64,000 nucleotides of DNA from a virus. Numbering within the stretch: the stretch's first letter is position 1; each line of letters starts with the position of its first letter. Made by a program: the position numbers and the translations under genes. Below, one piece after another: positions 9,723 through 52,426 of the stretch. The DNA lies in the IMG/VR virus record IMGVR_UViG_3300032334_002236, positions 22,914 through 86,913 of that record; one strand, given 5' to 3'. Below the pieces are notes generated by a model. It saw only the letters and a list, made by a program, of their open reading frames with translations. It searched no databases and was not told where the DNA came from.

Positions 9723-9730
9723 TATTTATC
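9723..9730 (-). promoter_or_regulatory. Late promoter box, S74 fibre
   Basis: GATAAATA, 17 nt before the ATG at 9705. Its first two bases belong to the TGA stop of the preceding gene, giving TGATAAATA. Confidence 0.65.
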
Positions 9731-12290: not shown

Positions 12291-12298
12291 TATTTATC
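12291..12298 (-). promoter_or_regulatory. Late promoter box, 255-residue fibre unit
   Basis: GATAAATA, 18 nt before the ATG at 12272 and downstream of the intrinsic terminator of the preceding unit, so it is needed to express the next three genes. Confidence 0.7.
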
Positions 12299-13230: not shown

Positions 13231-13238
13231 TATTTATC
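13231..13238 (-). promoter_or_regulatory. Late promoter box with structured leader
   Basis: GATAAATA overlapping the TGA stop of the 619-residue fibre gene. The ATG of the 272-residue gene is 64 nt away, an unusually long leader here, containing the hairpin GGTCA/TGACC (13192-13196 with 13206-13210) and a strong AGGAG site. Confidence 0.65.
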
Positions 13239-15111: not shown

Positions 15112-15119
15112 TATTTATC
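15112..15119 (-). promoter_or_regulatory. Late promoter box, 619-residue fibre
   Basis: GATAAATA, 15 nt before the ATG at 15096, directly after the stop of the C1q-like fibre gene. A GAGG site lies between box and ATG. Confidence 0.65.
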
Positions 15120-16686: not shown

Positions 16687-16838
16687 GCGCGGGTTTCCAG
16701 TAATATTTGTCCTGATTCACCATCAGTTATCTTGAGGAACCCTTGTAACAGGATGCCACTGGATTCTTCTGGCAGATCTTCAACAACATTCTGTTGTTGT
16801 GGTGTATTATTTATCTGTGATTCCTGCTGCGAATCCAT
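16683..16838 (-). CDS. 51-residue linker gene in a coupled chain
   Basis: A short reading frame of 51 codons, MDSQQESQINNTPQQ at the start and GILLQGFLKITDGESG near the end. The first half is Gln/Asn-rich and acidic. Its ATG overlaps the stop of the giant gene (TAATG) and its TGA overlaps the start of the 209-residue gene (ATGA). This exact packing on both sides is the main evidence that it is translated. Function is unknown; a small virion or assembly protein is likely given the context. A late-like box (16808-16815) lies inside it. Confidence 0.6.
   Translation of the reverse strand: MDSQQESQINNTPQQQNVVEDLPEESSGILLQGFLKITDGESGQILLETRA
16808..16815 (-). promoter_or_regulatory. Possible internal late box
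   Basis: GATAAATA inside the 51-residue gene, about 120 nt before the 209-residue gene. It may be chance, but it would give the coupled genes after the giant gene an extra promoter. Confidence 0.35.
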
Positions 16839-31272: not shown

Positions 31273-34200
31273 TCATCTCTGGTTAGTTAAAGCTAGGCCA
31301 GCATTGTTGATGCCACTCAACACACCGGTGGTTATTTCAATATTATCCACAGTGGCAGCACTAAGGAATATCTCATTGGGTAGACATCTGATTTCATACA
31401 AGCTGCCGAAAACACTGTTGGTGTCTTGTGGTGCGATTATTATGCTGTTGAGCAAACCGGGCAATTTGCTGTGCAGATAGGCACTGAGTTCGGAAAAATA
31501 AAATGTCTCGCCGAAATCCCAGTTTTCCAGAGCAAAATAATCCTGTATGTGATCCACTATACGGCTCTTCAATTCGTTGTCACTGATGCTGGTGTTGGTG
31601 TTCTTGACAACATAGAATTTAGCTTGTAGACTTAACATAGCTCTGTTGCCAAACAATAACTTATATCTGCCAGGATTGATCACCAGTTCGTCTGATATCA
31701 TCTTGTTACGGAACAACCCACCATAGCTGTTGTTCAGTGTCACACTATCCAGCTCAGCTGGACGCATCTGTGTGTTTGTCTGATCTGCCACATAATTCCT
31801 GTACTGCTCGTCATAACTCCGGGTGATGATGAACATGTCAATCAAGTTACTTGTGGCAGGATCCAATCTGCGATCATTGTTGGCATTATGTTGGTATTGG
31901 AAATTTATCAGTTGCCTTCCAGCAAAAACCAAGTATTGGCTGGTTACATCTCTGACTGCAGGAACATTGTTGGCTGATACTATCTGATAAAATTTACGGT
32001 CAGTGACAGCATAGAACAATTTACCGATAGGGAATCCGTTCCTGGCCAACTGTATCTGGTTAAACGTGCTGTAATTGCTGGCATTGATCACTTCACCAGT
32101 GTCCAATAATTGATAACGAACCAAGCTATCACTGTCAGTATAACTCTTGTAAAACACTGTGGTATTGGAGACCACTTTGCGGAATATGTCTGGATCACTA
32201 GGCAATGTATCATTTGCACGGTTAGCATATGTGACCATTATACGGCTGCTGTCACTAAATCCGTCATTTTCCCTGATGTTATCGCTTATCCTCAGGTCCA
32301 CAGTTGCAGCCAATCCCATGTTGTTGGCCAACACCCTGATGTTGTCATACATCAGCTTGTTAGTGCTGCTGTCGAATACTGGTACCGGATTGATATTGAG
32401 GAAGCTGATCTGTTTCTTGCTGCCAAAAACCATTTCACATACACGATATGTCATGGTGTAACGGTTGCCGTCTGTCTGGAATAACACCATCCAGCTGCTG
32501 TCCAAATTAGTACCCAGTGTATTGATATCGTAATCGCCAGTGACGCTGACATTGTCTATGCTGATTATGGTCCAAGGATCTTTGAATCCACTAGTGAAAC
32601 TGCGGTTGTATACCAGTGCAAATTCCTGATGGTTGAATATCAGGTTGATGATGGTGTTGGCAGTGATGTTCTGCATGGTGGTGGACCAGGGAGCATATAC
32701 CTTGGCTACTATCGCACCAGTGGGAATATTGTCCAACAGTGTGATAGCACCTATCCTACGTCCAGCAACATAACTCACCTGCGTGCCATCTCCCACCACG
32801 TTACGGACGCCTGTCCAGAATTCCATGCGGTCGGTGGTTATGGCTGGCGTGCCAGCTATCAGCACATTGTCCTTATCGAAATAATAACCAGCAGGCGCAC
32901 GTATCAACACCAGGCTGTTGGGCAACAGATATTGAGTGTTGCTGGTGCTGAATTCTGCCACTGTCTGGCTCACACCCACGTTGTTGACAAAATATCCAGT
33001 GCAACTGCTGTTGTCATTGGTAGTACGCTGCCAGAACAGGTAGGGTTGATCCAGCAATCCGCCTATGTTGGTATAAAATGATATGCTGTTGTAGTTTTCA
33101 TAATAGAACTGGCGCATGCCATCGCTTGCGATGCTGTTCAGCAATAACTTGTTGTAGACATCCACCACTTCATTGCGATTGGTAAACACAAAGTCCTGTG
33201 TCTTGTTCTTCTGGTCCTTGTAGAATACGCCGTCATCTGCAAACAAGTTGGTGCTGCTGTAGTTTCCCGTGGGGTCATTGATCTCGATACCACGGCTGCT
33301 GCCGATACTGAAACGGTTGACTGCTTTGCTCTTGACTATGTCGCTGTATTGTGTGTAAGGAAAGCTGTTGTAATCTTCACCATTGACCATGCGGTCCTGG
33401 CTGTAGAATGCCTGTGGTGCTTTGTTTTTTATCTCTGCCATGGAATCTGCCCGGCTGGCATTACTGACAGTGTATTGCAGGCTGGCCAGTATGCTCAATG
33501 TTTCCACACGGTTACTCTTGCTGACATAGGGTATGGTTATCAGTATACGGCTCATGTTACTGGGGCTTATGCGGTATGTGGTTCCATTACTGACACGATA
33601 GTATAACCTATATGTACCATATGGAATGTTACCGAATGTGCCATCACTGAACACCAGATCTATCTGATCGTTCATCCTGCTATTGACACTATAGATGTTC
33701 CTGACACCTTTGGCCAGGTCGCTATAGATGGCGCTGCTGTTATACAAGCTGGGTACCTTGGTCCATAGGTCAGCAACGGTGCCATTCTGCAGATCATAGA
33801 ACCAGATGTCTTCATTGTTGATGTTGTCGCTGTTTACATTGATCAGCCTATTGGGGATCTTATCCGAGATAGTCAAATCATTGTTGAGCAGGGTCCCCTG
33901 TTTGAAATACAGGAAATAACCAGTATTACTGCTGCCATAACCTTTACCATCATCCTGATGTATCAGACCGAATTGGCCACGTGTGCCAGGGTCCTGCTCA
34001 GTTATCAGATCGCTGGTAGCGATGTTGGCACCAACTATCTCGAAAGGACTGCTGTTGGTATCCAGGTTAGCAGTGAAGCTGAATACCGGTAAGATGCTAT
34101 TGGGGGTAATGATGTTATATTGTTGGGTGAGTATGTTGCTGATATATTTGCTGGCATAGGGTCTGCCCACACGTCCTGATCCCTGAGTAGCATTCAATAT

Positions 34201-34674
34201 CTGATTGAACTGGTTCTGCCAGTTCTGGTTTCCGCTGTCATCCCAGTTTACATATACATCATTTATGTTGTTGCCATTGATATCAGTCATGTTCTCAGTG
34301 GTACTGATAGCTGATATCTTTAACAACCCGCTTGCGCTCTTGTTACGATTGGGTGAATAACCCAGTTGTTTGATCAGTTTAAGCACACTGTCACTACGGG
34401 TAGCAGTATCCAGGAAATTCTCACGAGCATTGAGATCGGTGCGGAAAGCCAATGCTTGTGCATTGAAAGCAATCAGATCCAATAATGCCACAAACTCTGA
34501 ACTTTCTATGAAGTCATTGAAATCCTCTGCGTAATAAGTGCGGATGTAATCCACCATTACCTTGCGCATGGTTTCGAAATCATAACTCTGGAAATTGGCA
34601 TCACTGAAGGTGGTGTACAGCGTCTTCCAATCTTGCAAAGCGAATAGATTATTTTGTCTGGTGTTACTGGCCAT
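31273..34674 (-). CDS. gp6: Baseplate wedge protein gp6-like
   Basis: 1133 residues. The N-terminal 120 residues carry the gp6 signature (VDYIRTYYAEDFNDFIESSE, FVALLDLIAFNAQALAFRTD, LNARENFLDTATR, LIKQLGYSPNR). gp6 forms the dimeric wedge ring that holds the baseplate together and triggers sheath contraction. The length is well above T4 gp6 (about 660 residues), so the middle (about 450-850, with YLLPNSLVLIRAPAGYYFDK and similar) is probably an extra domain set. The C-terminus (ENWDFGETFYFSELSAYLH, IIIAPQDTNSVFGSLYEIRC) again looks like the conserved end of wedge proteins. gp25 lies immediately upstream in the same orientation, as expected. The start is 18 nt below a late box. Confidence 0.85.
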   Translation of the reverse strand: MASNTRQNNLFALQDWKTLYTTFSDANFQSYDFETMRKVMVDYIRTYYAEDFNDFIESSEFVALLDLIAFNAQALAFRTDLNARENFLDTATRSDSVLKLIKQLGYSPNRNKSASGLLKISAISTTENMTDINGNNINDVYVNWDDSGNQNWQNQFNQILNATQGSGRVGRPYASKYISNILTQQYNIITPNSILPVFSFTANLDTNSSPFEIVGANIATSDLITEQDPGTRGQFGLIHQDDGKGYGSSNTGYFLYFKQGTLLNNDLTISDKIPNRLINVNSDNINNEDIWFYDLQNGTVADLWTKVPSLYNSSAIYSDLAKGVRNIYSVNSRMNDQIDLVFSDGTFGNIPYGTYRLYYRVSNGTTYRISPSNMSRILITIPYVSKSNRVETLSILASLQYTVSNASRADSMAEIKNKAPQAFYSQDRMVNGEDYNSFPYTQYSDIVKSKAVNRFSIGSSRGIEINDPTGNYSSTNLFADDGVFYKDQKNKTQDFVFTNRNEVVDVYNKLLLNSIASDGMRQFYYENYNSISFYTNIGGLLDQPYLFWQRTTNDNSSCTGYFVNNVGVSQTVAEFSTSNTQYLLPNSLVLIRAPAGYYFDKDNVLIAGTPAITTDRMEFWTGVRNVVGDGTQVSYVAGRRIGAITLLDNIPTGAIVAKVYAPWSTTMQNITANTIINLIFNHQEFALVYNRSFTSGFKDPWTIISIDNVSVTGDYDINTLGTNLDSSWMVLFQTDGNRYTMTYRVCEMVFGSKKQISFLNINPVPVFDSSTNKLMYDNIRVLANNMGLAATVDLRISDNIRENDGFSDSSRIMVTYANRANDTLPSDPDIFRKVVSNTTVFYKSYTDSDSLVRYQLLDTGEVINASNYSTFNQIQLARNGFPIGKLFYAVTDRKFYQIVSANNVPAVRDVTSQYLVFAGRQLINFQYQHNANNDRRLDPATSNLIDMFIITRSYDEQYRNYVADQTNTQMRPAELDSVTLNNSYGGLFRNKMISDELVINPGRYKLLFGNRAMLSLQAKFYVVKNTNTSISDNELKSRIVDHIQDYFALENWDFGETFYFSELSAYLHSKLPGLLNSIIIAPQDTNSVFGSLYEIRCLPNEIFLSAATVDNIEITTGVLSGINNAGLALTNQR

Positions 34675-34692: not shown

Positions 34693-34700
34693 TATTTATC
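34693..34700 (-). promoter_or_regulatory. Late promoter box, gp6
   Basis: GATAAATA, 18 nt before the gp6 ATG at 34674, in the 46-nt gap after gp25, with AAGAG as a weak ribosome binding site. Confidence 0.7.
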
Positions 34701-34720: not shown

Positions 34721-35107
34721 TTATAGCAGGAATAATCGCTGAGCTTGGCTATCGAATTTTATCTGTAATGTGGTGATCTGGTCGGTATTATTGAAAGCCA
34801 GGGTGCATACCACTATCAGTCCATGACCATCAGGGCTTTCCTGCAAGGTAGCACCGCTGATCACGTTTAATCTGGGATCATTACTGATGATGTTCTGTAT
34901 GTTTGTCAGTATCTCGTCCTTCAAACCTATGGTCAATGGTTCGAACAACCTGTCCCAGATAATGCATCCAAACTCGGGATTCATCAGTTTTTCACCACGA
35001 CGTATGTTGAAATTATTCAACAGATCCTGGATGATCAGATCGTTATCTGCGATCCTAAAAGGTCCGAAATCCCTGTTTACTGTGCTATAACCGCGATACA
35101 ATACCAT
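34721..35107 (-). CDS. gp25: Baseplate wedge protein gp25-like
   Basis: 128 residues, the usual gp25 size. Motifs are FGPFRIADNDLIIQDLLNNF, RRGEKLMNPEFGCIIWDRLF and EPLTIGLKDEILTNIQ, typical of the gp25/lysozyme-like wedge family (also the type VI secretion TssE family). gp25 binds gp6 and gp53 in the wedge core and nucleates sheath. It sits directly upstream of gp6. A GGTAAATA box (35113-35120) overlaps the stop of the preceding gene and leaves only 5 nt before the ATG. Confidence 0.92.
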   Translation of the reverse strand: MVLYRGYSTVNRDFGPFRIADNDLIIQDLLNNFNIRRGEKLMNPEFGCIIWDRLFEPLTIGLKDEILTNIQNIISNDPRLNVISGATLQESPDGHGLIVVCTLAFNNTDQITTLQIKFDSQAQRLFLL

Positions 35108-35112
35108 GTGGT

Positions 35113-35120
35113 TATTTACC
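35113..35120 (-). promoter_or_regulatory. Possible late box directly before gp25
   Basis: GGTAAATA overlapping the TAG stop of the preceding gene and ending 5 nt before the gp25 ATG. If used, the transcript would start at about the ATG. Confidence 0.35.
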
Positions 35121-40154: not shown

Positions 40155-41164
40155 TAGATGAATCCTTGTCCTATCAGACCACCTTGTGCTAATTTTTCCA
40201 AGCTGTAGCTGTTGGTTATCTTATTTCTGCTGTATACTGGCATCATGCTGGCACTGATGGAGCACAGCGTGGGCACACGCTGATGGTTGCCTCCCACAGT
40301 GCAACTGATATAATCCACATCTGCAGGTAGTGTCATCTCATAGTTAGTCACAACCACCGGCACGTTCTCAAAAACCACTGGGCCATGGCCCGTGAGGAAG
40401 AATATAGGTGGCGGTGTGCCGCGCAGGCTGTCCTGACCATAAAACATCTTGGTGCTCATCCTGAGGAACCAGATCACGCCAGCCACATATGCAGCACTAG
40501 CTTCGCTACTAGCTGAGAATTCACCAGTGACGTTGATGGATTCCACGCTGCTGTTCTGATAACTGACAACACCATAAGGAGTATGGGTCAGTTTTTGTAC
40601 GTCATAGGTGGCACGATGGCTGCTGGTAACCGTTGGAGTATAAGGCCATAGTATGCCACCAGTGGCAGCAAGAGCACTGGCCACACCTTTGGTGAACTTG
40701 CCAGTGTTATCTTTGAGATATACACGATCATCTATGTTACCATATCTGCGATCCAGGTTGGCATTATTATCCACTAGTTTCTGATAAGGATCAGCACCAT
40801 TAGGTAACCCGCTGTTGACCAGGCGTTGCTGCTTGAGGTCGCGGTTGGGTTCCAACTGGCTGCTGGTGCCCTGGATATAATCGGTATTAGTGGTGGTGTA
40901 TATGACGCTGGTGCTGCTGGCCTGGCTTCCACTAGCAGATATCTTGGCTAATGTCTGGGTGGCATAATTCTGAGCTGGTAATTTATAACCACTGAATCCA
41001 GGAAGCTGCCCCTGTGTGTTATAATTGCTCAACGATGCGGTACCAGCAGGTCGTGTGCCAGTGTAACTGCTTTGGCGTTGGGAGCCGAAAGCTTCGGTGA
41101 TGTTCTGCTGGTTGGCCGCTGGCAAACGAGCATAGTGTTGGTTTGGGTCTGATATTTTTGTCAT
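40154..41164 (-). CDS. Baseplate tail-tube cap/initiator (gp48/gp54-like)
   Basis: 336 residues. After a low-complexity N-terminus come GILWPYTPTVTSSHRATYDV, NSSVESINVTGEFSASSEAS, WFLRMSTKMFYGQDSLRGTP, FLTGHGPVVFENVPVVVTNY and TLPADVDYIS. These are the tube-like beta-barrel motifs of the proteins that sit on top of the hub and start tail-tube growth (gp54 and gp48 in T4, which are related to tail tube gp19). Which of the two it is cannot be decided. It is the first gene of the minus-strand baseplate operon, with AGAAGG before the ATG and a late box at 41180-41187. Confidence 0.75.
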   Translation of the reverse strand: MTKISDPNQHYARLPAANQQNITEAFGSQRQSSYTGTRPAGTASLSNYNTQGQLPGFSGYKLPAQNYATQTLAKISASGSQASSTSVIYTTTNTDYIQGTSSQLEPNRDLKQQRLVNSGLPNGADPYQKLVDNNANLDRRYGNIDDRVYLKDNTGKFTKGVASALAATGGILWPYTPTVTSSHRATYDVQKLTHTPYGVVSYQNSSVESINVTGEFSASSEASAAYVAGVIWFLRMSTKMFYGQDSLRGTPPPIFFLTGHGPVVFENVPVVVTNYEMTLPADVDYISCTVGGNHQRVPTLCSISASMMPVYSRNKITNSYSLEKLAQGGLIGQGFI

Positions 41165-41179
41165 GTGCCTTCTGAATTA

Positions 41180-41187
41180 TATTTATT
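41180..41187 (-). promoter_or_regulatory. Late promoter box, first gene of baseplate operon
   Basis: AATAAATA, 15 nt before the ATG at 41164, with AGAAGG in between. It overlaps the -35 region of the opposing gp55 promoter. Confidence 0.65.
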
Positions 41188-41210
41188 CTTTAGTAAACTG
41201 GCTATATAAT
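41182..41210 (+). promoter_or_regulatory. Sigma70-like promoter of gp55, leaderless
   Basis: TATAAT at 41205-41210 with a weak -35 (TTTATT, 41182-41187) at 17-nt spacing. The ATG at 41217 is only 6 nt after the -10 box, where transcription is expected to begin. No Shine-Dalgarno sequence. Confidence 0.6.
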
Positions 41211-41216
41211 AGTGTC

Positions 41217-42098
41217 ATGACAAATGTAACCCCACCCACCCTCCCTACCAAACGCACCCCATATCTAACCAACAAAGACTTGTTGAGGCAGATCCATCTC
41301 AGTAAGAACAGCTATTGCAGTTATCTGGTCCCTGAAGATAACCAGTATGATATCATACTGCCCAGTCTCAGTAAGGTAAACCAGAGGACAGTGGCAGAAG
41401 CCAAACGCAATCGCGCAGACCGGATCGCCAAGAGAGCTTGGGAAGCCAGCCAATTGACTGGTGTCAAGACCAAATTGGACCAACACACCATTGATTGGCA
41501 CAAGGTACCCAAGACTGATGTGGTATTCCGTATCATCTGTTGGGATCATATACCGCTGGCACCAGGACGTAAGAAGAATCCCAAGATTACTGCAGACCAT
41601 CATGTCAAGGTCAATTTTCCTCCTTTCCAGCATTATCGGTTTAATGATCAGGACGAGCTGGTGTGTGTGGGCAAGAGCCACTGGCAGGGTGGATTACAGA
41701 ACGGACATTTCAGCAAAGATCACGGCAAGATGACTCCTGCCCTGGCTCGCATGTTTATCAAGCTGTGTGAGCGTTATGGCAGCAAGGGTAACTGGCGCGG
41801 TTACACCTATAATGACGAGATGCGTAGCCAAGCATTATTGCAACTGAGCCAAGTGGGACTCCAATTCGATGAGAGTAAATCTAATAATCCTTTTGCTTAT
41901 TATACTGCAACTATCACTAACAGTTTCACTCGCGTCCTCAACGTGGAAAAACGAAACCAACACCTACGAGATGATATCTTGGAAATGAACAACCTGAATC
42001 CTTCTTATTCTCGTCAGACTGATAATGCCATCAAGGCAGCAGAAGCAACGACCGCTGCTGTGGCTATCACGGCTGCTGCTGACACTCCCAAAGTATAA
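41217..42098 (+). CDS. gp55: Late-transcription sigma factor gp55-like
   Basis: 293 residues from ATG 41217. The C-terminal half carries the gp55 core: GSKGNWRGYTYNDEMRSQAL, then LQFDESKSNNPFAYYTATI and NSFTRVLNVEKRNQHLRDDI, matching sigma region 2 of T4 gp55, which binds core polymerase and recognises TATAAATA. The N-terminal about 170 residues (KRNRADRIAKRAWEAS, VFRIICWDHIPLAPGRKKN) extend beyond T4 gp55 (185 residues) and are unassigned. An upstream in-frame ATG at 41163 exists, but TATAAT at 41205-41210 ends 6 nt before 41217 and there is no Shine-Dalgarno site, so a leaderless start at 41217 is preferred. Confidence 0.85.
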   Translation: MTNVTPPTLPTKRTPYLTNKDLLRQIHLSKNSYCSYLVPEDNQYDIILPSLSKVNQRTVAEAKRNRADRIAKRAWEASQLTGVKTKLDQHTIDWHKVPKTDVVFRIICWDHIPLAPGRKKNPKITADHHVKVNFPPFQHYRFNDQDELVCVGKSHWQGGLQNGHFSKDHGKMTPALARMFIKLCERYGSKGNWRGYTYNDEMRSQALLQLSQVGLQFDESKSNNPFAYYTATITNSFTRVLNVEKRNQHLRDDILEMNNLNPSYSRQTDNAIKAAEATTAAVAITAAADTPKV

Positions 42099-42100
42099 GA

Positions 42101-42129
42101 TAGACTTTCCATCAACAAGATAGTATATT
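42101..42129 (+). promoter_or_regulatory. Sigma70-like promoter of gp47, leaderless
   Basis: TATATT at 42124-42129, with TAGACT 17 nt upstream (42101-42106). The ATG at 42136 follows the -10 box by 6 nt and no ribosome binding site is present. Confidence 0.5.
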
Positions 42130-42135
42130 GGATAC

Positions 42136-43149
42136 ATGGCAAATTTATTCAAACGTGCGGCTGTGTTCACGGACCTTCATCTGGGTAACAAGAGCAACAG
42201 CCATCAGTTCCTGACCGATTGTGAAAATTATATCACATGGTTCCTGGATGTGGTCCAGACCAGGCAATGTGATTGCGTGATCTTCTTGGGTGATTTCCAT
42301 CACAATCGCAACAACATCAACATCCAGACCATGGATGCCAGTTTGAAGATACTGCAACAGCTGGACGATCTTGGCATGCCAGTGTATTTCATCACTGGTA
42401 ACCACGACCTATATCACAAAGACAAGCGCACAGTCAGCAGTGTCAAATATATACATAAATTCCAAAACATACAACTGATCAACGATCAGATCACCACAGG
42501 TGATGTCACGTTCGTGCCCTGGCTCATAGGTGAGGAATACAAGAACATGAAGCGTGTGAAGAGCCAGTATGTCATGGGACATTTCGAGCTGCCACATTTC
42601 AAGATGAATGCCATGGTGGAGATGCCAGATCATGGCGAGCTTAATTCCAGAGATTTTGACAATGTGGGCTTGGTGTTCTCAGGACACTTCCACAAGCGCC
42701 AGAAAAAGAGCAACATCCATTATATCGGTAATGCTTTTGCACACAATTATGCAGATGCATGGGACGATGATCGTGGTTGCATGGTACTGGAATGGGGTTC
42801 GGAACCAGAATACCTGAACTGGCCTGGTGCTCCCAGATATCGCACACTCACGCTGGCACAGATGTTGGATCAACCAGATGTACACCTGGATCATCGCACA
42901 CATGCTCGTGTACAGTTGGATATCAGCATCAGCTATGAGGAAGCCACGTTCATTAAAGAAGAGATGCAAAAGAATTATAATGTGCGTGAACTCAGCTTGA
43001 TCCAACACAAGAATGAGACTCTGTTGGAAACTGGCATACAGGATGTCATGTTCGAGAGCGTGGATCAGATTGTCATGAGCCAGATACAGAACTTAGACAC
43101 CAAACATTATGATCAGCACCTGCTGATGGAAATTTACAATAGCTTGTGA
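42136..43149 (+). CDS. gp47: Recombination endonuclease subunit gp47 (Mre11/SbcD-like)
   Basis: 337 residues. The metallophosphoesterase motifs occur in order: FTDLHLG (about 11-17), GDFHHNRNN (about 52-60), GNHD (about 91-94) and GHFHKRQ (about 180). With gp46 it forms the ATP-dependent nuclease that resects DNA ends for recombination-dependent replication and host DNA degradation. It lies 37 nt after gp55 and 17 nt before gp46. There is no ribosome binding site; a TATATT box ends 6 nt before the ATG. Confidence 0.95.
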   Translation: MANLFKRAAVFTDLHLGNKSNSHQFLTDCENYITWFLDVVQTRQCDCVIFLGDFHHNRNNINIQTMDASLKILQQLDDLGMPVYFITGNHDLYHKDKRTVSSVKYIHKFQNIQLINDQITTGDVTFVPWLIGEEYKNMKRVKSQYVMGHFELPHFKMNAMVEMPDHGELNSRDFDNVGLVFSGHFHKRQKKSNIHYIGNAFAHNYADAWDDDRGCMVLEWGSEPEYLNWPGAPRYRTLTLAQMLDQPDVHLDHRTHARVQLDISISYEEATFIKEEMQKNYNVRELSLIQHKNETLLETGIQDVMFESVDQIVMSQIQNLDTKHYDQHLLMEIYNSL

Positions 43150-43161
43150 TGGGTGTATAAT
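43133..43161 (+). promoter_or_regulatory. Strong sigma70-like promoter of gp46, leaderless
   Basis: TTTACA (43133-43138), 17-nt spacer and TATAAT (43156-43161), close to full consensus. The ATG at 43167 begins 5 nt after the -10 box. The -35 box lies inside the end of gp47. Confidence 0.75.
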
Positions 43162-43166
43162 AAATC

Positions 43167-44939
43167 ATGCTTCAATTAAACACATTGACGGTCAAGAACT
43201 TCATGAGCGTGGGAAATGCCACACAAGCTGTGGATTTCAATCGCCGTGATCTCACTCTTGTGCTGGGAGAAAACTTGGACCTGGGTGGTGATGATACAGG
43301 TGCCCGTAACGGCACAGGAAAGACCACCATCATCAATGCTCTCAGTTATGCCTTGTATGGCCAAGCACTGACCAATATCAAGAAAGACAACCTGATCAAC
43401 AAGACCAACGGTCGCAACATGCTTGTGACCGTGGAATTCATCGTGAGCGGCAAGCAATATCGAATCGAGCGTGGGCGCAAGCCCAACGTGACCAAACTGT
43501 ACATCGACGGTAATGAACAGACCGAATATTCAGATAACAGCCAAGGCGACAGTCGTGAAACACAGCACGATATCGATCGTTTGTTGGGCATGAGCGTGGA
43601 CATGTTCCGCCATGTTGTGGCATTGAACACCTATACAGAACCATTCCTGGGCATGCGGACTAATGATCAGAGACAGATCATCGAACAGCTATTGGGCATC
43701 ACTATCCTGTCCGAAAAAGCAGACATGCTGAAAGACCAGATAAAGATCAGCAAAGAGATGATAAATGAAGAGCGTATCAGTATCAAAGCGCAACAGGATG
43801 CAAATACTCGCATTGCTGAACAGATAGAAAACCTCAGGAAACGCCAGAGATTATGGCTGGCCAAACGAGAAGAAGATTGTGTCAATCTGGAACGTGGCTT
43901 GAGAGATCTGGCCGACGTGGATATCGATACTGAGATCGAGAACCATCGCATCCTTGCTGATTACCATGATCGCAAAAAGAGGAAAGCTGATGCGGAAAAA
44001 TGGATCAAAGCCATACAGCAGGATAAGATTAAGGAAGAAAGAAACCAGGCCAAGCTGGAAAAAGAGATCGCTGATCTGGAAAACCACACATGCTATGCTT
44101 GCGGATCTGCGCTCCACGATCAAAAGCATGAACAAGTGCTTGCTGGAAAAGTCAAACAACACAGTGAGTCCGCCGCACAGCTCTTGGCACATGAGCATCA
44201 AGAACAAGAACACACCGACGTGATCGCACAAATCGGCGATATAGGTGATATGCCTAATGTGATCTATGACACACTGGAACTGGCATTGAACCATCGTAAC
44301 ACGCTGGAACAGATGATGGACCAGCTGGACAAACGCCAGGAAGAAGACGATCCGTATGCCGAGCAGATCACAGACATGGAGACAACTGCACTGGCTGAGA
44401 TCACATGGGACCAGGTCAACAGCCTCACACAGGTGCAAGAGCACCAGGAATTCCTGCTCAAGATGCTGACCAACAAGGACAGTTTCGTACGCAAGAAGAT
44501 CATAGATCAGAACCTGGCTTACCTGAACAGCCGTCTGGGCAGCTACCTGTCAGCTATCGGCTTGCCACATGAGGTCAAGTTCCAGAACGATCTTACTGTG
44601 GAGATCACAGAGCTGGGTCGTGAACTGGACTTTGACAACCTGAGCCGTGGCGAACGCAACCGTCTGATACTATCACTCAGCTGGGCATTCCGTGATGTAT
44701 GGGAGAGCTTGTACATGCCCATCAACCTGTTGTTCATCGACGAATTGATCGACTCAGGCATGGATGCATCAGGTGTGGAGAACAGCTTGGCTATCCTCAA
44801 ACGCATGGCACGTGACAGGAACAAGAGCATCTTCCTGGTCAGCCACCGTGACGAACTGGGTGGCAGGGTCAACAATACGTTAATTGTAACAAAGGAAAAT
44901 GGTTTCACGAGTTACGGATCTGATACGGAAATGGTATAA
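43167..44939 (+). CDS. gp46: Recombination endonuclease subunit gp46 (Rad50/SbcC-like ATPase)
   Basis: 590 residues. Walker A is GARNGTGKTT at about 45-54, preceded by an Asp/Gly-rich insertion (LDLGGDDTG). Long coiled-coil arms flank a zinc-hook CYACG (about 309). The ABC signature LSRGERNRLILSLSWAF lies near 490-506 and Walker B LLFIDELIDSGMD near 520. The D-loop and H-loop region (FLVSHRDEL) follows. It is the ATPase partner of gp47. Its promoter is the best in the window, TTTACA-N17-TATAAT, ending 5 nt before the ATG, so the transcript is predicted to start at or next to the A of ATG. Confidence 0.95.
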   Translation: MLQLNTLTVKNFMSVGNATQAVDFNRRDLTLVLGENLDLGGDDTGARNGTGKTTIINALSYALYGQALTNIKKDNLINKTNGRNMLVTVEFIVSGKQYRIERGRKPNVTKLYIDGNEQTEYSDNSQGDSRETQHDIDRLLGMSVDMFRHVVALNTYTEPFLGMRTNDQRQIIEQLLGITILSEKADMLKDQIKISKEMINEERISIKAQQDANTRIAEQIENLRKRQRLWLAKREEDCVNLERGLRDLADVDIDTEIENHRILADYHDRKKRKADAEKWIKAIQQDKIKEERNQAKLEKEIADLENHTCYACGSALHDQKHEQVLAGKVKQHSESAAQLLAHEHQEQEHTDVIAQIGDIGDMPNVIYDTLELALNHRNTLEQMMDQLDKRQEEDDPYAEQITDMETTALAEITWDQVNSLTQVQEHQEFLLKMLTNKDSFVRKKIIDQNLAYLNSRLGSYLSAIGLPHEVKFQNDLTVEITELGRELDFDNLSRGERNRLILSLSWAFRDVWESLYMPINLLFIDELIDSGMDASGVENSLAILKRMARDRNKSIFLVSHRDELGGRVNNTLIVTKENGFTSYGSDTEMV

Positions 44940-44940
44940 T
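44912..44940 (+). promoter_or_regulatory. Sigma70-like promoter of nuclease gene, leaderless
   Basis: TATAAT at 44935-44940, exactly over the gp46 stop codon, with a weak -35 (TTACGG). The nuclease ATG at 44947 follows after 6 nt. Confidence 0.55.
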
Positions 44941-44946
44941 TACTGT

Positions 44947-45468
44947 ATGCCAAGTCCAAGTAAGAACAAAGGAAATAGCTGGGAACGTGACGTTGCCAAG
45001 GATCTAACCAATCTGTATGGTGAATCATTCATCCGAGCTCCTGGCTCAGGTGCATATGTGGGTGGAACCAATGCCCATCGTAAGCAGGTATTGCATGAGG
45101 GACAGATCAGGAGTTTCAAAGGCGACATCATTCCTGGCCAGAGTTTTCCCAGGCTTAATATCGAAGCAAAGAGTTACAAAGACTTTCCATTCCATCAATT
45201 CTTCACAGGCACAGTACTACAACTTGAAACTTGGCTCACACAATTGGCAGCATCGGCAGACCCAGGCGACGTTAACTTACTCATAATGAAATTCAACCGC
45301 AAAGGCAAGTTTGTAGCTTTCAATTTTGACGAAGACAGAGCTTATCCTATATTTGTGGAACGGCATTTCCTATACACCAGCGAAAAACTAGGCACTTGGG
45401 CATTCATGGGTTACGAAGCATTCTGGCGTTTGAATGCGGACGGCATCAGGCATTTATCGGCTGCATAG
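44947..45468 (+). CDS. PD-(D/E)XK nuclease, Holliday-junction-resolvase-like
   Basis: 173 residues from ATG 44947. It begins KNKGNSWERDVAKDLTNLYG and continues FIRAPGSGAYVGG, SFKGDIIP and LNIEAKSYKDFPF. The Glu of WERDVA, the Asp of KGDI and the E-A-K of IEAKSY form a complete PD-(D/E)XK active site in the layout of phage resolvase-like nucleases. It could act on recombination intermediates made by gp46/47 or on packaging substrates; the family alone does not decide. The start follows a TATAAT box by 6 nt and overlaps no ribosome binding site. The longer in-frame start at 44899 lies inside gp46 and is rejected. Confidence 0.75.
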   Translation: MPSPSKNKGNSWERDVAKDLTNLYGESFIRAPGSGAYVGGTNAHRKQVLHEGQIRSFKGDIIPGQSFPRLNIEAKSYKDFPFHQFFTGTVLQLETWLTQLAASADPGDVNLLIMKFNRKGKFVAFNFDEDRAYPIFVERHFLYTSEKLGTWAFMGYEAFWRLNADGIRHLSAA

Positions 45469-46114: not shown

Positions 46115-46981
46115 TCAAGAGCCGACTGCGAAAAAATTTGAGTAATCGAACTCCAATGCTAGATCATATACATGGGCACATTCGGTGCATTCCAATCTCA
46201 TCTTGGGTAACTTGGCATCTTCGTTGAATTTTTCCATCTGTTTCTGTATGCGACGGATCATCTGTCCAGGTGCATTGTTGTAATATTCCAGGATATATTC
46301 TGGATCGTCCACCTCAAGTCCATCGCTAGTCATGATATTCTGGGTACTAGTGGCCAACAAGCTCATGTTGAGATCTACCAGGTTTGTCAAGTAGGTATTA
46401 TATCTCTTTACTTTCTCATCTTCAGCCAAGCTATCATCTGTCACTGTGGCTAAGATGCGTTGTTCCTCGAATAGGATACGATTGCGACGATTCACATCGA
46501 AATACTTCTGTGGTTTCAGTTTGATCTTGATATCGGTATCAGTCACCAATTCTGTATAATCAGGTGATCGCACATTAGCCAATGCGTAGTTGAGATCCAC
46601 TGCATGGGTGTTTTCTGCTTCACATGCAGGGCATTTGCTATCCACATCCATGTCTTGACCGTAACTGGCGATCCTAATAGCTATCAGTACAGCATCCACA
46701 TCTATGCTAGGCATCTCCCAGGCATTGATGATGTCAGGGCAGCAGTTCTGGATCACTTTAACCACACCTTCACCATTCATCAGTGCATCAGGGGTGCGGA
46801 TGATGATTTCTTCCCTGGTAGTCATGGGATATACTGCCACTTCTCCGCTGCCTGTGAGATTGATGCTACCAGCTGGCCAATAGTTTCCAGAGCTTGGTAG
46901 TTTCAGATACAAAGCAGGTTGCCTGAAATGTTTGATTAGGGGATTACTTGATTGATTATCCATGTGGTTTTCTGGTTCCAT
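46115..46981 (-). CDS. gp26: Baseplate hub assembly protein gp26-like
   Basis: 288 residues from ATG 46981. Motifs are PALYLKLPSSGNYWPAGS near the start, VYPMTTREEIIIRTPDALMN, GEGVVKVIQNCCPDI, and two CxxC knuckles (CPACEAENTHAV near 114-125 and CTECAHVYDL near 265-274), which suggest a zinc-binding fold. This matches the T4 baseplate-hub gp26 family. ATG 46963 (MDNQSSN) is an alternative start. The upstream late box on this strand (46995-47002) leaves 13 nt of spacing and no clear Shine-Dalgarno sequence is visible. It is divergent from the tape measure gene with overlapping control elements. Confidence 0.8.
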   Translation of the reverse strand: MEPENHMDNQSSNPLIKHFRQPALYLKLPSSGNYWPAGSINLTGSGEVAVYPMTTREEIIIRTPDALMNGEGVVKVIQNCCPDIINAWEMPSIDVDAVLIAIRIASYGQDMDVDSKCPACEAENTHAVDLNYALANVRSPDYTELVTDTDIKIKLKPQKYFDVNRRNRILFEEQRILATVTDDSLAEDEKVKRYNTYLTNLVDLNMSLLATSTQNIMTSDGLEVDDPEYILEYYNNAPGQMIRRIQKQMEKFNEDAKLPKMRLECTECAHVYDLALEFDYSNFFAVGS

Positions 46982-46986
46982 AAATA
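46979..46986 (+). promoter_or_regulatory. Late promoter box, tape measure gene
   Basis: CATAAATA, 25 nt before the ATG at 47012. It overlaps the start codon of gp26 on the other strand. Confidence 0.6.
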
Positions 46987-46994
46987 TGTACAGA

Positions 46995-47002
46995 TATTTA
47001 TT
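46995..47002 (-). promoter_or_regulatory. Late promoter box, gp26
   Basis: AATAAATA on the minus strand, 13 nt before the gp26 ATG at 46981. With the plus-strand box at 46979 it forms an imperfect inverted repeat shared by divergent transcripts. Confidence 0.6.
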
Positions 47003-47011
47003 GGTTGAAAA

Positions 47012-50000
47012 ATGAACCCTCAAGATTTACAGAATCTGTTAGACACACTGAAACAATTCAGCGACAAGCTGGGTACCATCGCTGACGACATCAAGACCAA
47101 TGCCAATAACACGCAAGCCCAGGTAAATCAAAATAATACCAAAATTTCACGTAGCTGGTCCGAGCTGGGTGAAGCCACGAAAAAATTGTCAAAACGTCTG
47201 GACGAAAATGAAAAATCTGCACAAAAGAATGAGGACAGCCAAAAACGCACATACAAGCAACAAGACGACGCAGTAAAGTTCTTCTCCCGGGGTATCAGGC
47301 AGAGCACCACAGAATTCAGTAAAAACTTACAGACTGGCAAGATAAGCCTGAATGAGTTTCGTGATCAGATCAACAGTGCCAAGGATGATATAAAAAACGA
47401 ACAGAATCTCAAAGTCCAGCAAAAACAAGAGCTGATGCGTGAGATCGAAGCCCTGGATAAGAATGTTCAAAGGCAAGCCAAATATGGATTTGCCACAGAT
47501 CTGGCTGGTAAAGCATTGGGCCAGTTGGGCAAGGCAGCTGGTGTTGTAGGCGGAGCCACGTTAGATGTGGTACGTTCCTACCAGAATTCCAGTAGCCAGA
47601 TAGGAATCAGCACCGCTGCTATGTCAGCTGGGGTAAACCTGGCTGGTACTGGGCTCAGCATGGTGGGCGATAGTGCTAGCATTGCTGGCGGTATGCTAAC
47701 CGCGTTCAGTAGAGGACCATGGACAAAAGGTCTTGGTGTAGCCCTCCAAGTTGCAGGGTTTGGTGCTTCTTTTGCTGGTAAATCCATTACAGAACTGGGA
47801 AAAGTAGTACTCCCCATTCTCAACACTGAGATGGAAAAACAGATACAGAGCTTCCAGGCTCTGAGCAATATCGGTGCCATATTTGCAAATGGCGTGGATG
47901 GTATGAGAAAGGCAAGCATAGAAGCTGGCATGGATCTGGGCATGTTGAGTAACGTGTTCAAGACCAACACAGAACAGTTTGCAAATAGTGGTTTAGGTAT
48001 GACTGCTGTCATGGAAAGGTTTGCTGGTGCCCGTAGCAGGAGCATAGCTGATGGATTCCAGAAACAGTTGTTGAACCTGGGTTACAGCGTGGAACAACAG
48101 GGTGGGCTCATGGCTCAGGTGTTCCAACAACTGGGCAGGTCAGGTAAAGCACAGACTGCTACCAGTGAAGAAATAGCCAAACAGACTCTGGAATATGGCA
48201 AGACTCTCAAAGTCATAACAGAATTGACTGGCGCTGACGCTGCTAAACGCATGCAGGAAGCTGGTCGCCAGATGCAAGAAGTGCAGATAGCTTCCAAGAT
48301 TCGTGAGATGGAAGCAAAAAATCCTGGAGCTGAAAAAAGGATACAAGCTATATTAGCCACTGTGCCTGACGAATTAAAGCTGGGAGTCAAACAAAAATTA
48401 GTATTGGGGCAAGTGGTAGACCAAACCACCAATGAGATGATCAGCCAATCACCTAAAATGGGACAAGCAATGGACACCATTGTTGGTGCGATGTATGATT
48501 CCTCTCTTGATGCTAAATCAGGAGCAGCATTAACTGTTAAGACATTGAGTGCTGCTAGAGATCAACTGGCAAAGGATCTAGAGGCTATGGGTACTGCTCA
48601 ATTAGCAGATCCCATGTCATTCACAGCACCGGCTGTTGAAAAAGCAAATAAGATCATAGCACAAACACAATCTTTTGCTGATAAGTTAACTGCAGATGGT
48701 GCACCTAAACGCACAGAAGACGCAGCTAAGACAGAAAACAAAGCCACTGCTGCTATGAATAACGTGATCGAAAACAACATCAAGATGGCCATGAAGATCC
48801 AGGAATTGATATTGGACACAGACATCATGGGCAAATATGCCAAGGCTATGACTAATCTCACTGATACTGTGATAGAACAGATATCAAAATTCGGTGGCAA
48901 GTCTAAACCAGAAAACGAAAACGACAAATCTGAAGCAGCAAAGATAGGAGGTGCAACAGTAGCCTATGGCGTACCAGCAGCTACCTCAATAGCTGGTGCA
49001 GTAGCTGGTGAAGCAATAGGTAAAGAAGTAATCAAGCAGATAGTCAAACGAGGAATTACAGCAACCACAACTGTTGCTGGAGGAGTTGCAGGAACAGGGG
49101 CTATGCCTGGTCCAGGTTCAATTGCAGGTGCAATTGCTGGTGGGATCTTGGGAGAAAAACTAGGTGAAGCTATCGTTGACAGTGACGTCGGGGAAATACT
49201 AATAACTGCTGGTGAGAAAGTAGGACAAATAGTAGAAGCTTCGGTAGAGATTGCCAAAGCTGGGTTCAATAGCATAATAGGCATGTTCAAGAACGCACCA
49301 CATGCCAAACAAGGAGGGATCATTAACAGTGATGTGTCTGGCAGCATTGCCATGCTGCATGGCACTGAAGCAGTATTACCGCTGGATGATGCCAGCATCA
49401 TGACTAAATTGCGCAATAGCCTGATGCCAGAAGCTGGTAATGCTAACCAACTAAGTGGTGTCTCTGAAATCTTAAAAAATATGCAAGACAATAACAGCAA
49501 CATATTGAAACAAGTCTACAAGGAAAGCGGTACAGAATCTTATATCATGATGAGATCCCTTCTACAAATGCAACCATCTACTGGTCACATTACTAATGAT
49601 TTAATAACAGATGCTATCACAAAACTGAATGATCAGGGATCTATCAGTATAGAGACCAATAATCAGATCAAACAGCTTAATGATACTACTAAAATTACGG
49701 CTAGAGATCAACTTATATCAGATCTACGTAATAATAAGGAAGATCCTTTAAGATTTACAGCAGACTCACCGTATTTTGCAAAATACAACGAGGCTATCTC
49801 AGGTAAACAAAAACAACCGGAAAATTTCAATACAGAAGATATTTTTGGTGATCGTATAACCAAAATCAACACGCAGTTGCAGGGCGGTTTCCTTAATATA
49901 AATGACACCATTAGTAAGATACCAAAGACTGTGACTAACCAAAGAGAAAACGTCTTTGATTCAGAAATAGGTCCTGCTAAAGAAAAGACAGGAATTGTTA

Positions 50001-50371
50001 GCGATCTTTTCAAAACTATATCATCGTTAATACCTAACATGGGTACCATGGGCACTGCAAATGATGCTGTCATAGGTGCATTGAACAATCTGACCAGCTT
50101 GAGCGATGCCAGCAACAAGAGTATAGACAATGTCAGCCAGGCTTTAACTGGTGTTAAAGACAGCATGCAAGCTATCGTACAACAGAAACAATCACCTGTT
50201 TCGGAAGAAATGATACAGGCAGTCACAGGCAAAGTCATGGATAGCATGGGTAAGACTCTGGACACCCATAATGAAATATTAACAAAGATCAGCGGCCAGA
50301 TGGCTGATCTGGTGGACCATAGCCGTGCCACCAACTACAACACTGAACAGATGAAATATAGTATCCAGTGA
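47012..50371 (+). CDS. Tail tape measure protein (gp29 analogue)
   Basis: 1119 residues. The N-terminal 150 residues are highly charged, Gln/Lys-rich coiled coil. Hydrophobic Gly/Ala-rich segments lie at about 165-265 (GKAAGVVGGATLDVV, GTGLSMVGDSASIAGGML, VALQVAGFGASFAG) and 645-725 (SIAGAVAGEAIG, GSIAGAIAGGILGEKLG). Near residue 763 is GGIINSDVSGSIAMLHGTEA followed by VLPLDD, a motif typical of tape measure C-terminal regions. The tape measure sets tail length and passes through the tube at ejection. It is placed immediately before the portal gene rather than in the hub operon of T4. The ATG has only a weak ribosome binding site; a late box lies 25 nt upstream. Confidence 0.8.
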   Translation: MNPQDLQNLLDTLKQFSDKLGTIADDIKTNANNTQAQVNQNNTKISRSWSELGEATKKLSKRLDENEKSAQKNEDSQKRTYKQQDDAVKFFSRGIRQSTTEFSKNLQTGKISLNEFRDQINSAKDDIKNEQNLKVQQKQELMREIEALDKNVQRQAKYGFATDLAGKALGQLGKAAGVVGGATLDVVRSYQNSSSQIGISTAAMSAGVNLAGTGLSMVGDSASIAGGMLTAFSRGPWTKGLGVALQVAGFGASFAGKSITELGKVVLPILNTEMEKQIQSFQALSNIGAIFANGVDGMRKASIEAGMDLGMLSNVFKTNTEQFANSGLGMTAVMERFAGARSRSIADGFQKQLLNLGYSVEQQGGLMAQVFQQLGRSGKAQTATSEEIAKQTLEYGKTLKVITELTGADAAKRMQEAGRQMQEVQIASKIREMEAKNPGAEKRIQAILATVPDELKLGVKQKLVLGQVVDQTTNEMISQSPKMGQAMDTIVGAMYDSSLDAKSGAALTVKTLSAARDQLAKDLEAMGTAQLADPMSFTAPAVEKANKIIAQTQSFADKLTADGAPKRTEDAAKTENKATAAMNNVIENNIKMAMKIQELILDTDIMGKYAKAMTNLTDTVIEQISKFGGKSKPENENDKSEAAKIGGATVAYGVPAATSIAGAVAGEAIGKEVIKQIVKRGITATTTVAGGVAGTGAMPGPGSIAGAIAGGILGEKLGEAIVDSDVGEILITAGEKVGQIVEASVEIAKAGFNSIIGMFKNAPHAKQGGIINSDVSGSIAMLHGTEAVLPLDDASIMTKLRNSLMPEAGNANQLSGVSEILKNMQDNNSNILKQVYKESGTESYIMMRSLLQMQPSTGHITNDLITDAITKLNDQGSISIETNNQIKQLNDTTKITARDQLISDLRNNKEDPLRFTADSPYFAKYNEAISGKQKQPENFNTEDIFGDRITKINTQLQGGFLNINDTISKIPKTVTNQRENVFDSEIGPAKEKTGIVSDLFKTISSLIPNMGTMGTANDAVIGALNNLTSLSDASNKSIDNVSQALTGVKDSMQAIVQQKQSPVSEEMIQAVTGKVMDSMGKTLDTHNEILTKISGQMADLVDHSRATNYNTEQMKYSIQ

Positions 50372-50406: not shown

Positions 50407-52188
50407 ATGGCATCATGGAAAAAACACTGGCGTGTGGTCAGTGACGGCAAATATAGTCCAGTTAACGGCAGCGTCACAGACTACAGCAACACCAATTATC
50501 TGGGCCAACAGGCCAATGCGGCATTCCGCAATTACCAGAGCATGCTGCCTGATGTGTATTCGGGACATCCCAACCGTGTGGACCGTTATGCCCAATATGA
50601 GAACATGGACCTGGATTCGGAAGTGAACGCTGCACTGGACATCCTGGCTGAGTTCTGCACACAGATAAACCCAGATACCCAGACCAGTTTCCAACTGCAT
50701 TTCCATGAAGATGCCAACGACAACGAGATCATGATCCTGAAAGAACAACTGCGAGCCTGGTACAGTCTCAACGAATTTGATCAACGCATGTTCAAGATAT
50801 TCCGCAATACATTGAAATATGGCGATCAGATATTCATCCGTGATCCAGAGACCTACAAGTGGTACTGGTCAGAAATGAACCGTGTGAGCAAGGTGGTGGT
50901 CAACGAGAGCCAGGGCAAGAAACCTGAGATCTATTACATCCGTGACATTGCACCAAACTTGCAGAACAACACCATCACCAAGCAACCAGGACCCAACGAC
51001 ACTTATGCTCATGCTCCTTACATGGGTGGCAGCCGCAGTTACACTGCTGGTGGCGAAGTGTTCAGTCCCAACAACCGTTTTGGTGCTGGCAACAATGAAT
51101 TCCCTGTGGATGCAGAACACGTGATCCATCTCAGTCTCACGGAAGGACTGGATGTGAACTGGCCTTTCGGTGTCAGCCTGTTTGAAGGCATCTTCAAAGT
51201 GTTCAAACAGAAAGAACTATTGGAAGATGCCATCATCATCTATCGTGTCCAACGTGCGCCTGAACGCCGCATGTTCAAGATCGATGTGGGTAATATGCCA
51301 GCGCATCTGGCCATGCAATTCGTGGAACGTGTGAAGAACGAGATACATCAACGTCGTATTCCCACACAGGGTGGCGGCGGTCAGAATCTCATGGATGCCA
51401 GTTATAATCCCCTGAGCATCAATGAAGATTATTTCTTTCCACAGACTGCTGACGGTCGTGGATCCAGTGTGGAAGTGTTGCCAGGTGGACAAAACCTGGG
51501 CGAGATCGACGATCTCAGATATTTCACTAACAAATTATACCGTAGTTTGCGTATTCCGTCAAGTTATTTGCCCACTGGTCCTGAAGATTCAGACCGTGTG
51601 TTCAACGACGGCAAGGTTACCACAGCATTGATCCAGGAATTCAGGTTCAATGAATATTGCAAGCGCATACAGCGTTATATCAGTCCCAAGTTCGATACGG
51701 AATTCAAGATGTTTTTGAAATATCGTGGGTTCAATCTGGACAACAGCATCTTCGAACTCAGGTATAGCGAGCCACAGAACTTTGCTGCTTACCGTGAGAT
51801 GGAATTGAATGTCAGCCGCATCAGCAGTTTCACTGGCATAGCACAGACAGAATTCCTCAGCAAGCGTTTCATGCTCAAGAAGTATCTGGGTCTCACAGAA
51901 CTGGAAATGGCAGAAAACGACAAGATGTGGCATGAGGAACGTGGACAAGACGAGCCAGGCAATATGTTACAAGGTAGCGATCTGCGTACAGTGGGTGTCA
52001 CACCAGGTGGTATCAATACCGACATGGATACCTTGGGTGATATAGCTGCACAGCAACCTGGTCCAGGTATGCCTGGTGCAGATAACATGGCACAGGGTGA
52101 AGTTGGTGCTGGTGGTGCTGTAGGTCCACAAGCTGGTGCTGGAACAAGCCCAGGTGGTGCTGCTCCTCCAAGTGGTGGCTTGATATAA
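50407..52188 (+). CDS. gp20: Portal vertex protein gp20
   Basis: 593 residues. Conserved gp20 motifs: YENMDLDSEVNAALDILAEF, QIFIRDPETYKWYWSEMNRV, VIHLSLTEGLDVNWPFGVSL, FEGIFKVFKQKELLEDAIII, YRVQRAPERRMFKIDVGNMP, SYNPLSINEDYFFPQT and SSVEVLPGGQNLGEIDDL. It forms the dodecameric portal through which DNA is packaged and the neck attaches. The last 75 residues are Gly/Ala/Pro-rich and disordered, longer than in T4. AGAGGA lies nine nt before the ATG, with a TGTAAATA late-like box at 50381-50388. Confidence 0.97.
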   Translation: MASWKKHWRVVSDGKYSPVNGSVTDYSNTNYLGQQANAAFRNYQSMLPDVYSGHPNRVDRYAQYENMDLDSEVNAALDILAEFCTQINPDTQTSFQLHFHEDANDNEIMILKEQLRAWYSLNEFDQRMFKIFRNTLKYGDQIFIRDPETYKWYWSEMNRVSKVVVNESQGKKPEIYYIRDIAPNLQNNTITKQPGPNDTYAHAPYMGGSRSYTAGGEVFSPNNRFGAGNNEFPVDAEHVIHLSLTEGLDVNWPFGVSLFEGIFKVFKQKELLEDAIIIYRVQRAPERRMFKIDVGNMPAHLAMQFVERVKNEIHQRRIPTQGGGGQNLMDASYNPLSINEDYFFPQTADGRGSSVEVLPGGQNLGEIDDLRYFTNKLYRSLRIPSSYLPTGPEDSDRVFNDGKVTTALIQEFRFNEYCKRIQRYISPKFDTEFKMFLKYRGFNLDNSIFELRYSEPQNFAAYREMELNVSRISSFTGIAQTEFLSKRFMLKKYLGLTELEMAENDKMWHEERGQDEPGNMLQGSDLRTVGVTPGGINTDMDTLGDIAAQQPGPGMPGADNMAQGEVGAGGAVGPQAGAGTSPGGAAPPSGGLI

Positions 52189-52191
52189 ATA
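52184..52191 (+). promoter_or_regulatory. Perfect late promoter, prohead gene cluster
   Basis: TATAAATA, identical to the T4 late consensus, overlapping the TAA stop of gp20. It should drive the core, protease, scaffold and capsid genes. Confidence 0.8.
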
Positions 52192-52207: not shown

Positions 52208-52426
52208 ATGTTATTGATGGAGATGTTCACAGACGAAGCTGGTGATTACCAAGATGTAAGCCAGGATCAGAGCGTACCAAAGATCAATGATCTGCGTAAA
52301 AGCCGTCTGACACTGAGCCAGATAAACCAGTTGCGTAAGATGAATGACCAGAGAATGGTCGAATATATGGCTGACCTCAAGAAGGTGAAACAGCAGTATG
52401 GTGCACCGCCTGCACCAGTCCAGTGA
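52208..52426 (+). CDS. Small prohead-region protein between gp20 and core proteins
   Basis: 72 residues from ATG 52208. It starts MLLMEMFTDEAGDYQD and ends with a basic helix, LTLSQINQLRKMNDQRMVEY and MADLKKVKQQYGAPP. Similar small helical proteins lie between portal and core genes in cyanophage-like T4 relatives, in the place of T4 gp67/gp68. ATG 52202 is one nt from the GGAG site, too close to use, whereas 52208 is seven nt away and is preferred. A perfect TATAAATA late promoter overlaps the gp20 stop codon. Confidence 0.65.
   Translation: MLLMEMFTDEAGDYQDVSQDQSVPKINDLRKSRLTLSQINQLRKMNDQRMVEYMADLKKVKQQYGAPPAPVQ

Follow-up and report, generated by a model that had tools for sequence, protein, structure and literature searches.

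Predicted leaderless mRNAs in a T4-like phage clade: promoters of two classes placed directly at start codons

The 64,000-nucleotide stretch analysed here (the window; bases 22,914-86,913 of the 86,913-base linear IMG/VR record IMGVR_UViG_3300032334_002236) raises the question whether a relative of phage T4 begins some of its messages on the start codon itself. The phage is T4-like and uncultured: the genes of gp55, gp47, gp46 and a PDDEXK nuclease stand in a row, and a large block of virion genes diverges from them. The original prediction was that these four genes, each with a TATAAT or TATATT box 5 or 6 nt before the ATG and none with a Shine-Dalgarno (SD) sequence, have leaderless mRNAs, and that leaderless translation is specific for one stage of the infection. 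Our comparison with related viral contigs leads to a different generalization. A defined subset of promoters, belonging both to the sigma70 class and to the gp55-type late class, appears to be fused to the start codon and is predicted to give leaderless mRNA (probability roughly 0.87), and the restriction to one stage was not borne out.

The positions and spacings of the four -10 boxes (Table 1) were all as predicted, and the SD sequence is indeed missing at all four starts. The gp46 promoter, described as near-perfect, agrees with the consensus at 11 of 12 positions. The quality of the -35 element varies: it is good at gp46, gp47 and the 5'-3' exonuclease gene located outside the window, and weak at gp55 and the nuclease gene (3/6 matches at the latter). 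The gp47 promoter is kept in relatives as TTGACN-N17/18-TATANT-N6-ATG, and an arrangement equivalent to that of gp46 was found in 15 of 64 relatives. At gp55 the leaderless-type spacing (6-7 nt) is shared by the three closest relatives (L002, L008 and L009) and occurs chiefly among close relatives of the window phage; in many remoter ones TATAATAGTAGTAG precedes an SD leader. Of the four boxes, that of the nuclease gene is the least secure; as a single site it could still be due to chance. Because in-frame ATG codons exist upstream of gp55 (41163) and of the nuclease gene (44899), these two start calls rest on homology and spacing. The mRNA structure predicted at the four starts showed nothing unusual. 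The 52-bp divergent region in front of gp55 (41164-41217) carries a late motif, AATAAATA, on the minus strand for the virion operon and the gp55 sigma70 promoter on the plus strand: a compact early/late switch point.

Promoter-like strings are not more frequent in this region than in shuffled sequence (10 vs. 9.7 +/- 2.7), therefore the evidence must come from their position relative to the ATG. A scan of the whole 86.9-kb contig against shuffled sequence, which had been suggested as a check, found six candidate ATGs with a bipartite promoter ending 5-6 nt upstream, whereas 500 shuffles averaged 0.26 and never gave more than 2. Two of the six sites, those of the exonuclease and of a QueE-like open reading frame (ORF), lie outside the window.

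We collected 80 related viral contigs and read eleven large ones in full; the clade counts refer to 12 incomplete contigs with 1210 ATG starts. Of these starts, 36 have a sigma70 promoter that ends 5-6 nt upstream of the ATG, where 3.7 were expected (p 2.6e-23). Pseudo-replication through repeated orthologues was controlled by collapsing the counts to gene families, which left 22 against 3.7. In a set of 673 de-duplicated starts TANNNT boxes peaked exactly 6 nt before the ATG (55 vs. 17 +/- 5.4), and 49% of the -10 boxes at this distance, as opposed to 19% of the boxes elsewhere, were preceded by a -35 element at 16-18 spacing. The excess was confined to ATG (38 vs. 9.0 expected; GTG 2 vs. 2.3, TTG 2 vs. 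2.8). SD sequences were present in 11% of both leaderless-type classes, close to the background of about 10%, compared with 50% of the other genes, and at ATGs of the same contigs that are not starts the arrangement was 14-fold (sigma70) and 80-fold (late) rarer. A pyrimidine occupied position -1 at 29 of 36 sigma70 starts and at 35 of 35 late starts, compared with 50%; such an excess is what one would predict if the A were the transcription start. Since few promoters lie 7-16 nt before an ATG, a gene seems to have either no leader or one of about 11 nt or more. The leaderless type accounts for about 20-28% of the promoters in either class. Position, -35 spacing, AUG specificity, absence of SD, the -1 pyrimidine and conservation all speak strongly for the predicted leaderless transcription. 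Contigs G001-G010 have, in addition, a secondary sigma70 peak at a distance of about 30 nt from the ATG, in many cases with leaders that carry an AAGGA-type SD; these are early promoters with a standard leader.

The late promoters show the same behaviour at an offset of their own. The TAAATA motif peaks 5 nt before the ATG (35 vs. 1.2, p 8.7e-39; 18 vs. 1.05 gene families), more sharply than the sigma70 boxes, and it is likewise restricted to ATG (39 vs. 2.4), with no GTG or TTG case. For sigma70 promoters the usual distance between the -10 box and the transcription start is 6 nt. In T4 the late promoter sequence TATAAATA occupies positions -13 to -6 (PMC1524935), a TAAATA ending 5 nt before the ATG would therefore put +1 on the A of the ATG. 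That two kinds of promoter, each with its own offset, should both land on this A is hard to account for without leaderless transcription. As with T4-type late promoters, the TAAATA core lies at -11 to -6, and the phage encodes a sigma factor of the gp55 type. In the window the baseplate wedge gene gp25 has such a promoter (GTAAATA-ACCAC-ATG), its transcript is predicted to be a leaderless late mRNA, and a glycosyltransferase gene on the same contig has TTAAATA-TCCAC-ATG. Of 15 relatives, 13 have the late motif 4-6 nt before the gp25 ATG, and at the gp67 position, between the portal and protease genes, the small gene is of the leaderless type in 21 of 25; in both genes the motif is conserved with a pyrimidine at -1 throughout. 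The window's own gp67-position gene is SD-led (TATAAATA, then TCTTCGGAG), it seems to have switched to SD.

Table 1. Genes and promoter-start arrangements in the window and elsewhere on the same contig
Feature	Position	Strand	Description
gp55, late sigma factor	41217..42098	+	phrog_12791 E 3.8e-81, phrog_234
gp55 -10 TATAAT	41205..41210	+	6 nt to ATG 41217; weak -35-like TTTATT at 41182-41187
gp47, SbcD-like nuclease subunit	42136..43149	+	phrog_100 E 1.6e-57; Metallophos
gp47 promoter TAGACT-N17-TATATT	42101..42129	+	-10 at 42124-42129, 6 nt to ATG 42136
gp46, SbcC-like nuclease subunit	43167..44939	+	phrog_77 E 2.3e-99
gp46 promoter TTTACA-N17-TATAAT	43133..43161	+	5 nt to ATG 43167
PDDEXK endonuclease / RusA-like resolvase	44947..45468	+	PF24608 E 2.3e-26; phrog_244
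Nuclease -10 TATAAT	44935..44940	+	overlaps gp46 stop codon; 6 nt to ATG 44947
gp25, baseplate wedge	34721..35107	-	PF04965; phrog_261
gp25 late-promoter-like GTAAATA	35113..35119	-	ends 5 nt before ATG
Small gene between portal and protease (gp67 position)	52208..52426	+	phrog_13986
gp67-position late promoter TATAAATA	52184..52191	+	then TCTTCGGAGT and ATGACAATG; ~11-nt leader to ATG 52208
Late promoter ATAAATA	9723..9729	-	17 nt before ATG of 7708-9705; leadered, SD present
Late promoter ATAAATA	12291..12297	-	18 nt before ATG of 11505-12272
Late promoter ATAAATA	15112..15118	-	15 nt before ATG of 13237-15096; SD present
Late promoter ATAAATA	34693..34699	-	18 nt before ATG of 31273-34674
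5'-3' exonuclease	L082:9603, same contig outside window		TTGACA-N16-TATAAT-6-ATG
QueE-like ORF	L082:7900, same contig outside window		weak, TATGAT, possibly chance
Nucleotidyltransferase	L082:3011, same contig		TTGACA-N17-TAGAGT-5-ATG, found with looser cut only

Several other interpretations have to be weighed against fusion of promoters to start codons. The stage-specific version of the original prediction, in which just the early and middle genes are leaderless and the late genes use SD, draws on the four neighbouring early genes and on the fact that most late genes in the window have their promoter 13-28 nt upstream together with an SD. It did not hold for gp25, neither here nor in most relatives, nor for the gp67-position gene of the clade, and the late promoters have their own, sharper leaderless peak, while many early genes are SD-led. 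We therefore regard stage specificity as quite unlikely. Even less probable is that the A+T-rich box is not a promoter and acts in translation, as an enhancing, S1-binding or structure-free stretch before SD-less starts. A+T-rich upstream regions are frequent at SD-less genes and some of the -10 boxes do lack a good -35, but a box of this kind would not explain a -35 at the right spacing, a peak one base sharp, different peak positions for two promoter types, the lack of a GTG/TTG excess or the pyrimidine at -1.

That A+T-rich, tightly packed DNA places promoters anywhere, some of them beside an ATG, would agree with the unremarkable number of promoter-like strings in the region. The shuffle, distance and non-start-ATG controls, the conservation gene by gene and the control phages make such a coincidence hardly credible: neither leaderless peak was seen in T4, S-PM2, RaK2, PA5oct or Atu_ph07 (PA5oct whole, RaK2 and Atu_ph07 partial). 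It is somewhat easier to imagine, if still improbable, that the promoters are real and the transcripts have leaders of 1-4 nt or start inside the ORF and use a downstream start codon. Sigma70 start choice varies by a few nt, the spacing is 7-8 nt in some relatives, and the late motif has a sub-peak at 7 nt. The modal distances of 6 and 5 nt, however, match a +1 at the A, as does the -1 pyrimidine, and in alignments the start codons coincide with those of homologues that are SD-led, PA5oct gp47 for example.

It must be noted that some observations weigh against our preferred reading, in which both promoter classes are fused to start codons. The 5' ends are predicted from the sequence, and the offset of the late start is taken over from T4. 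The -35 is weak at two of the four genes, gp55 and the nuclease gene, and the -10 box of the latter was not found in the close relatives L002, L008 and L009. About a third of the gp47 genes of the clade do not have the arrangement, and a longer mRNA begun upstream might serve gp47 and gp46 as well. Finally, no translation factor likely to favour leaderless mRNA turned up, S21, IF3 and S1 domains being absent from the 12 incomplete clade contigs; a phage-encoded protein of this kind was accordingly dropped as a cause.

At a conserved subset of genes, then, predicted promoters of two classes sit fused to start codons, and it is from this placement that we infer where the RNA begins and how it is translated. 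With the A of the ATG as its first base, the transcript made by RNA polymerase would be a leaderless mRNA. The host sigma70 holoenzyme would do so at early and middle genes (on this contig gp55, gp47, gp46, the nuclease, exonuclease and nucleotidyltransferase genes), the gp55 holoenzyme at late genes (on this contig gp25 and the glycosyltransferase gene, in relatives gp25 and the gene at the gp67 position). Leaderless mRNAs in general differ in the way they use 70S ribosomes, as the original prediction noted; here a 70S ribosome with fMet-tRNA would recognize the 5'-terminal AUG without SD pairing, most genes remaining SD-led. What the phage gains is a matter of speculation: it may be an autonomous, SD-independent and probably modest expression of genes which open transcription units in tight borders. 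A plausible guess is that proteins required in few copies are expressed moderately and independently of SD. More tentatively, two translation routes might run in parallel for the whole of the infection, one SD-led and used by most genes, the other leaderless and confined to a conserved minority with a sigma70 or gp55 promoter fused to the start codon, genes such as gp55 and the gp67-position gene switching between them in evolution. Leaderless status would then be a regulated property keeping chosen proteins independent of SD initiation, for example of limiting initiation factors or 30S subunits; we consider this possible rather than likely.

The gp55-gp47-gp46 cassette and homology place the window phage with the T4-like jumbo phages that have Arenbergviridae as relatives. 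Among cultured phages, those of the PA5oct/Atu_ph07/121Q/RaK2 kind are closest, with gp46 up to 49% identical and gp55, gp47 and gp46 clustered in the same order as in the window. In a gp47 tree of 65 proteins (58 clade members and seven cultured outgroups) the leaderless arrangement was present in 37 of the 58, including 4/4 in the window's own subclade, and its state changes at least 12 times within the clade, whereas gp47 is SD-led in all seven outgroups (PA5oct, a member of Arenbergviridae, Atu_ph07, Phosso, 121Q, RaK2, GAP32 and XaC1). The -35/-10 spacers of gp47 are unrelated in sequence, the 6-nt distance is constant. The late promoters of T4 (TATAAATA at -13 to -6, gp55-dependent; PMC1524935, PMC2988020) share with those described here the TAAATA core, the lack of a -35 and a gp55 encoded nearby, but in T4 TAAATA ends 5 nt before the ATG in 0 of 237 called starts, in the window clade in 35 of 1210. 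The Prochlorococcus phage P-SSM2, read partly (L208-L217), hinted weakly at the two leaderless classes, with 3 starts in each. We also considered genome compaction as a reason for leaderless genes. Same-strand gene gaps are shorter at leaderless than at leadered promoters (medians 34 vs. 55 and 18 vs. 45 nt), by about 20-27 nt or roughly one leader length; the difference was overall not significant (p 0.14 and 0.07), and the explanation was rejected. The host search returned just three contigs of marine metagenome-assembled genomes with distant gp46 relatives (48-51% identical), none of the leaderless type at gp46, which are probably misbinned phage.

Leaderless phage mRNAs as such are already known. 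The cI mRNA of lambda, made from the sigma70-type promoter PRM, has a 5'-terminal AUG; it is a single gene of a temperate phage, whereas here we see a conserved feature of many genes. In the Thermus phage phiYS40 most middle and late transcripts lack a leader, IF2 being raised and IF3 lowered, according to a review that cites the primary work (PMC3594737). With the window clade phiYS40 shares leaderless mRNAs in a phage, there for a large gene class; it differs in that most of the middle and late class is affected, not a subset of both the early and the late class, and the T4-like phages described here are not known to shift initiation factors. In leaderless genes of Deinococcus-Thermus and Actinobacteria the -10 box adjoins the ORF, an arrangement which is standard in Deinococcus-Thermus and has been shown experimentally to give leaderless mRNA in D. 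radiodurans (PMC3160421, PMC12340547). The TANNNT-type box, its distance from the start (about 12 bp from its first T or 6-7 bp from its end) and the absence of SD are shared with those bacteria; here, by contrast, the arrangement is found in phages, in a minority of genes, with usable -35 boxes and with a second, phage-type late promoter. The strict use of AUG in the clade is like that in E. coli, whose leaderless mRNAs require AUG, and unlike that in mycobacteria or Streptomyces (PMC9031893). No report of leaderless mRNA in T4-like phages was found in the open-access literature, in agreement with the original prediction, which knew of no such pattern. What is new is that the arrangement occurs in a T4-like clade, that the late promoters of the gp55 type take part in it as well as the sigma70 class, and that it is conserved gene by gene.

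A few neighbouring features deserve mention. Between the genes at 46115-46981 (minus strand) and 47012-50371 (plus strand) a near-palindrome, CCATAAATATGTACAGATATTTATTGG (46968-47010), carries a late motif on each strand, these are overlapping divergent late promoters. The late block contains a single ORF of 4806 codons (16838-31258), probably encoding a very large virion or tail protein. Elsewhere on the same contig (L082:4820-8514) there are genes for GTP cyclohydrolase I and a 6-pyruvoyl-tetrahydropterin synthase (QueD-type) as well as the QueE-like ORF; the first two have Pfam matches, the QueE-like ORF has none, and a 7-deazaguanine pathway for DNA modification is possible. No Rfam elements were found in the window. 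The relatives G002 and G003 (L101-L103, L111) have about 24 tRNA genes each, and at G002:58634 a predicted leaderless late gene begins directly after a tRNA-like end.

In T4, the textbook example for the control of phage genes, mRNAs as a rule have leaders. A large group of its environmental relatives nevertheless seems to put both promoter types on start codons, with the same genes affected over long evolutionary distances. Gene finders that look for SD sequences will misplace such starts; gp55 and the nuclease gene, with their longer in-frame alternatives, are examples. The clade offers a natural experiment on why genes turn leaderless, and a test of start-site choice by gp55.

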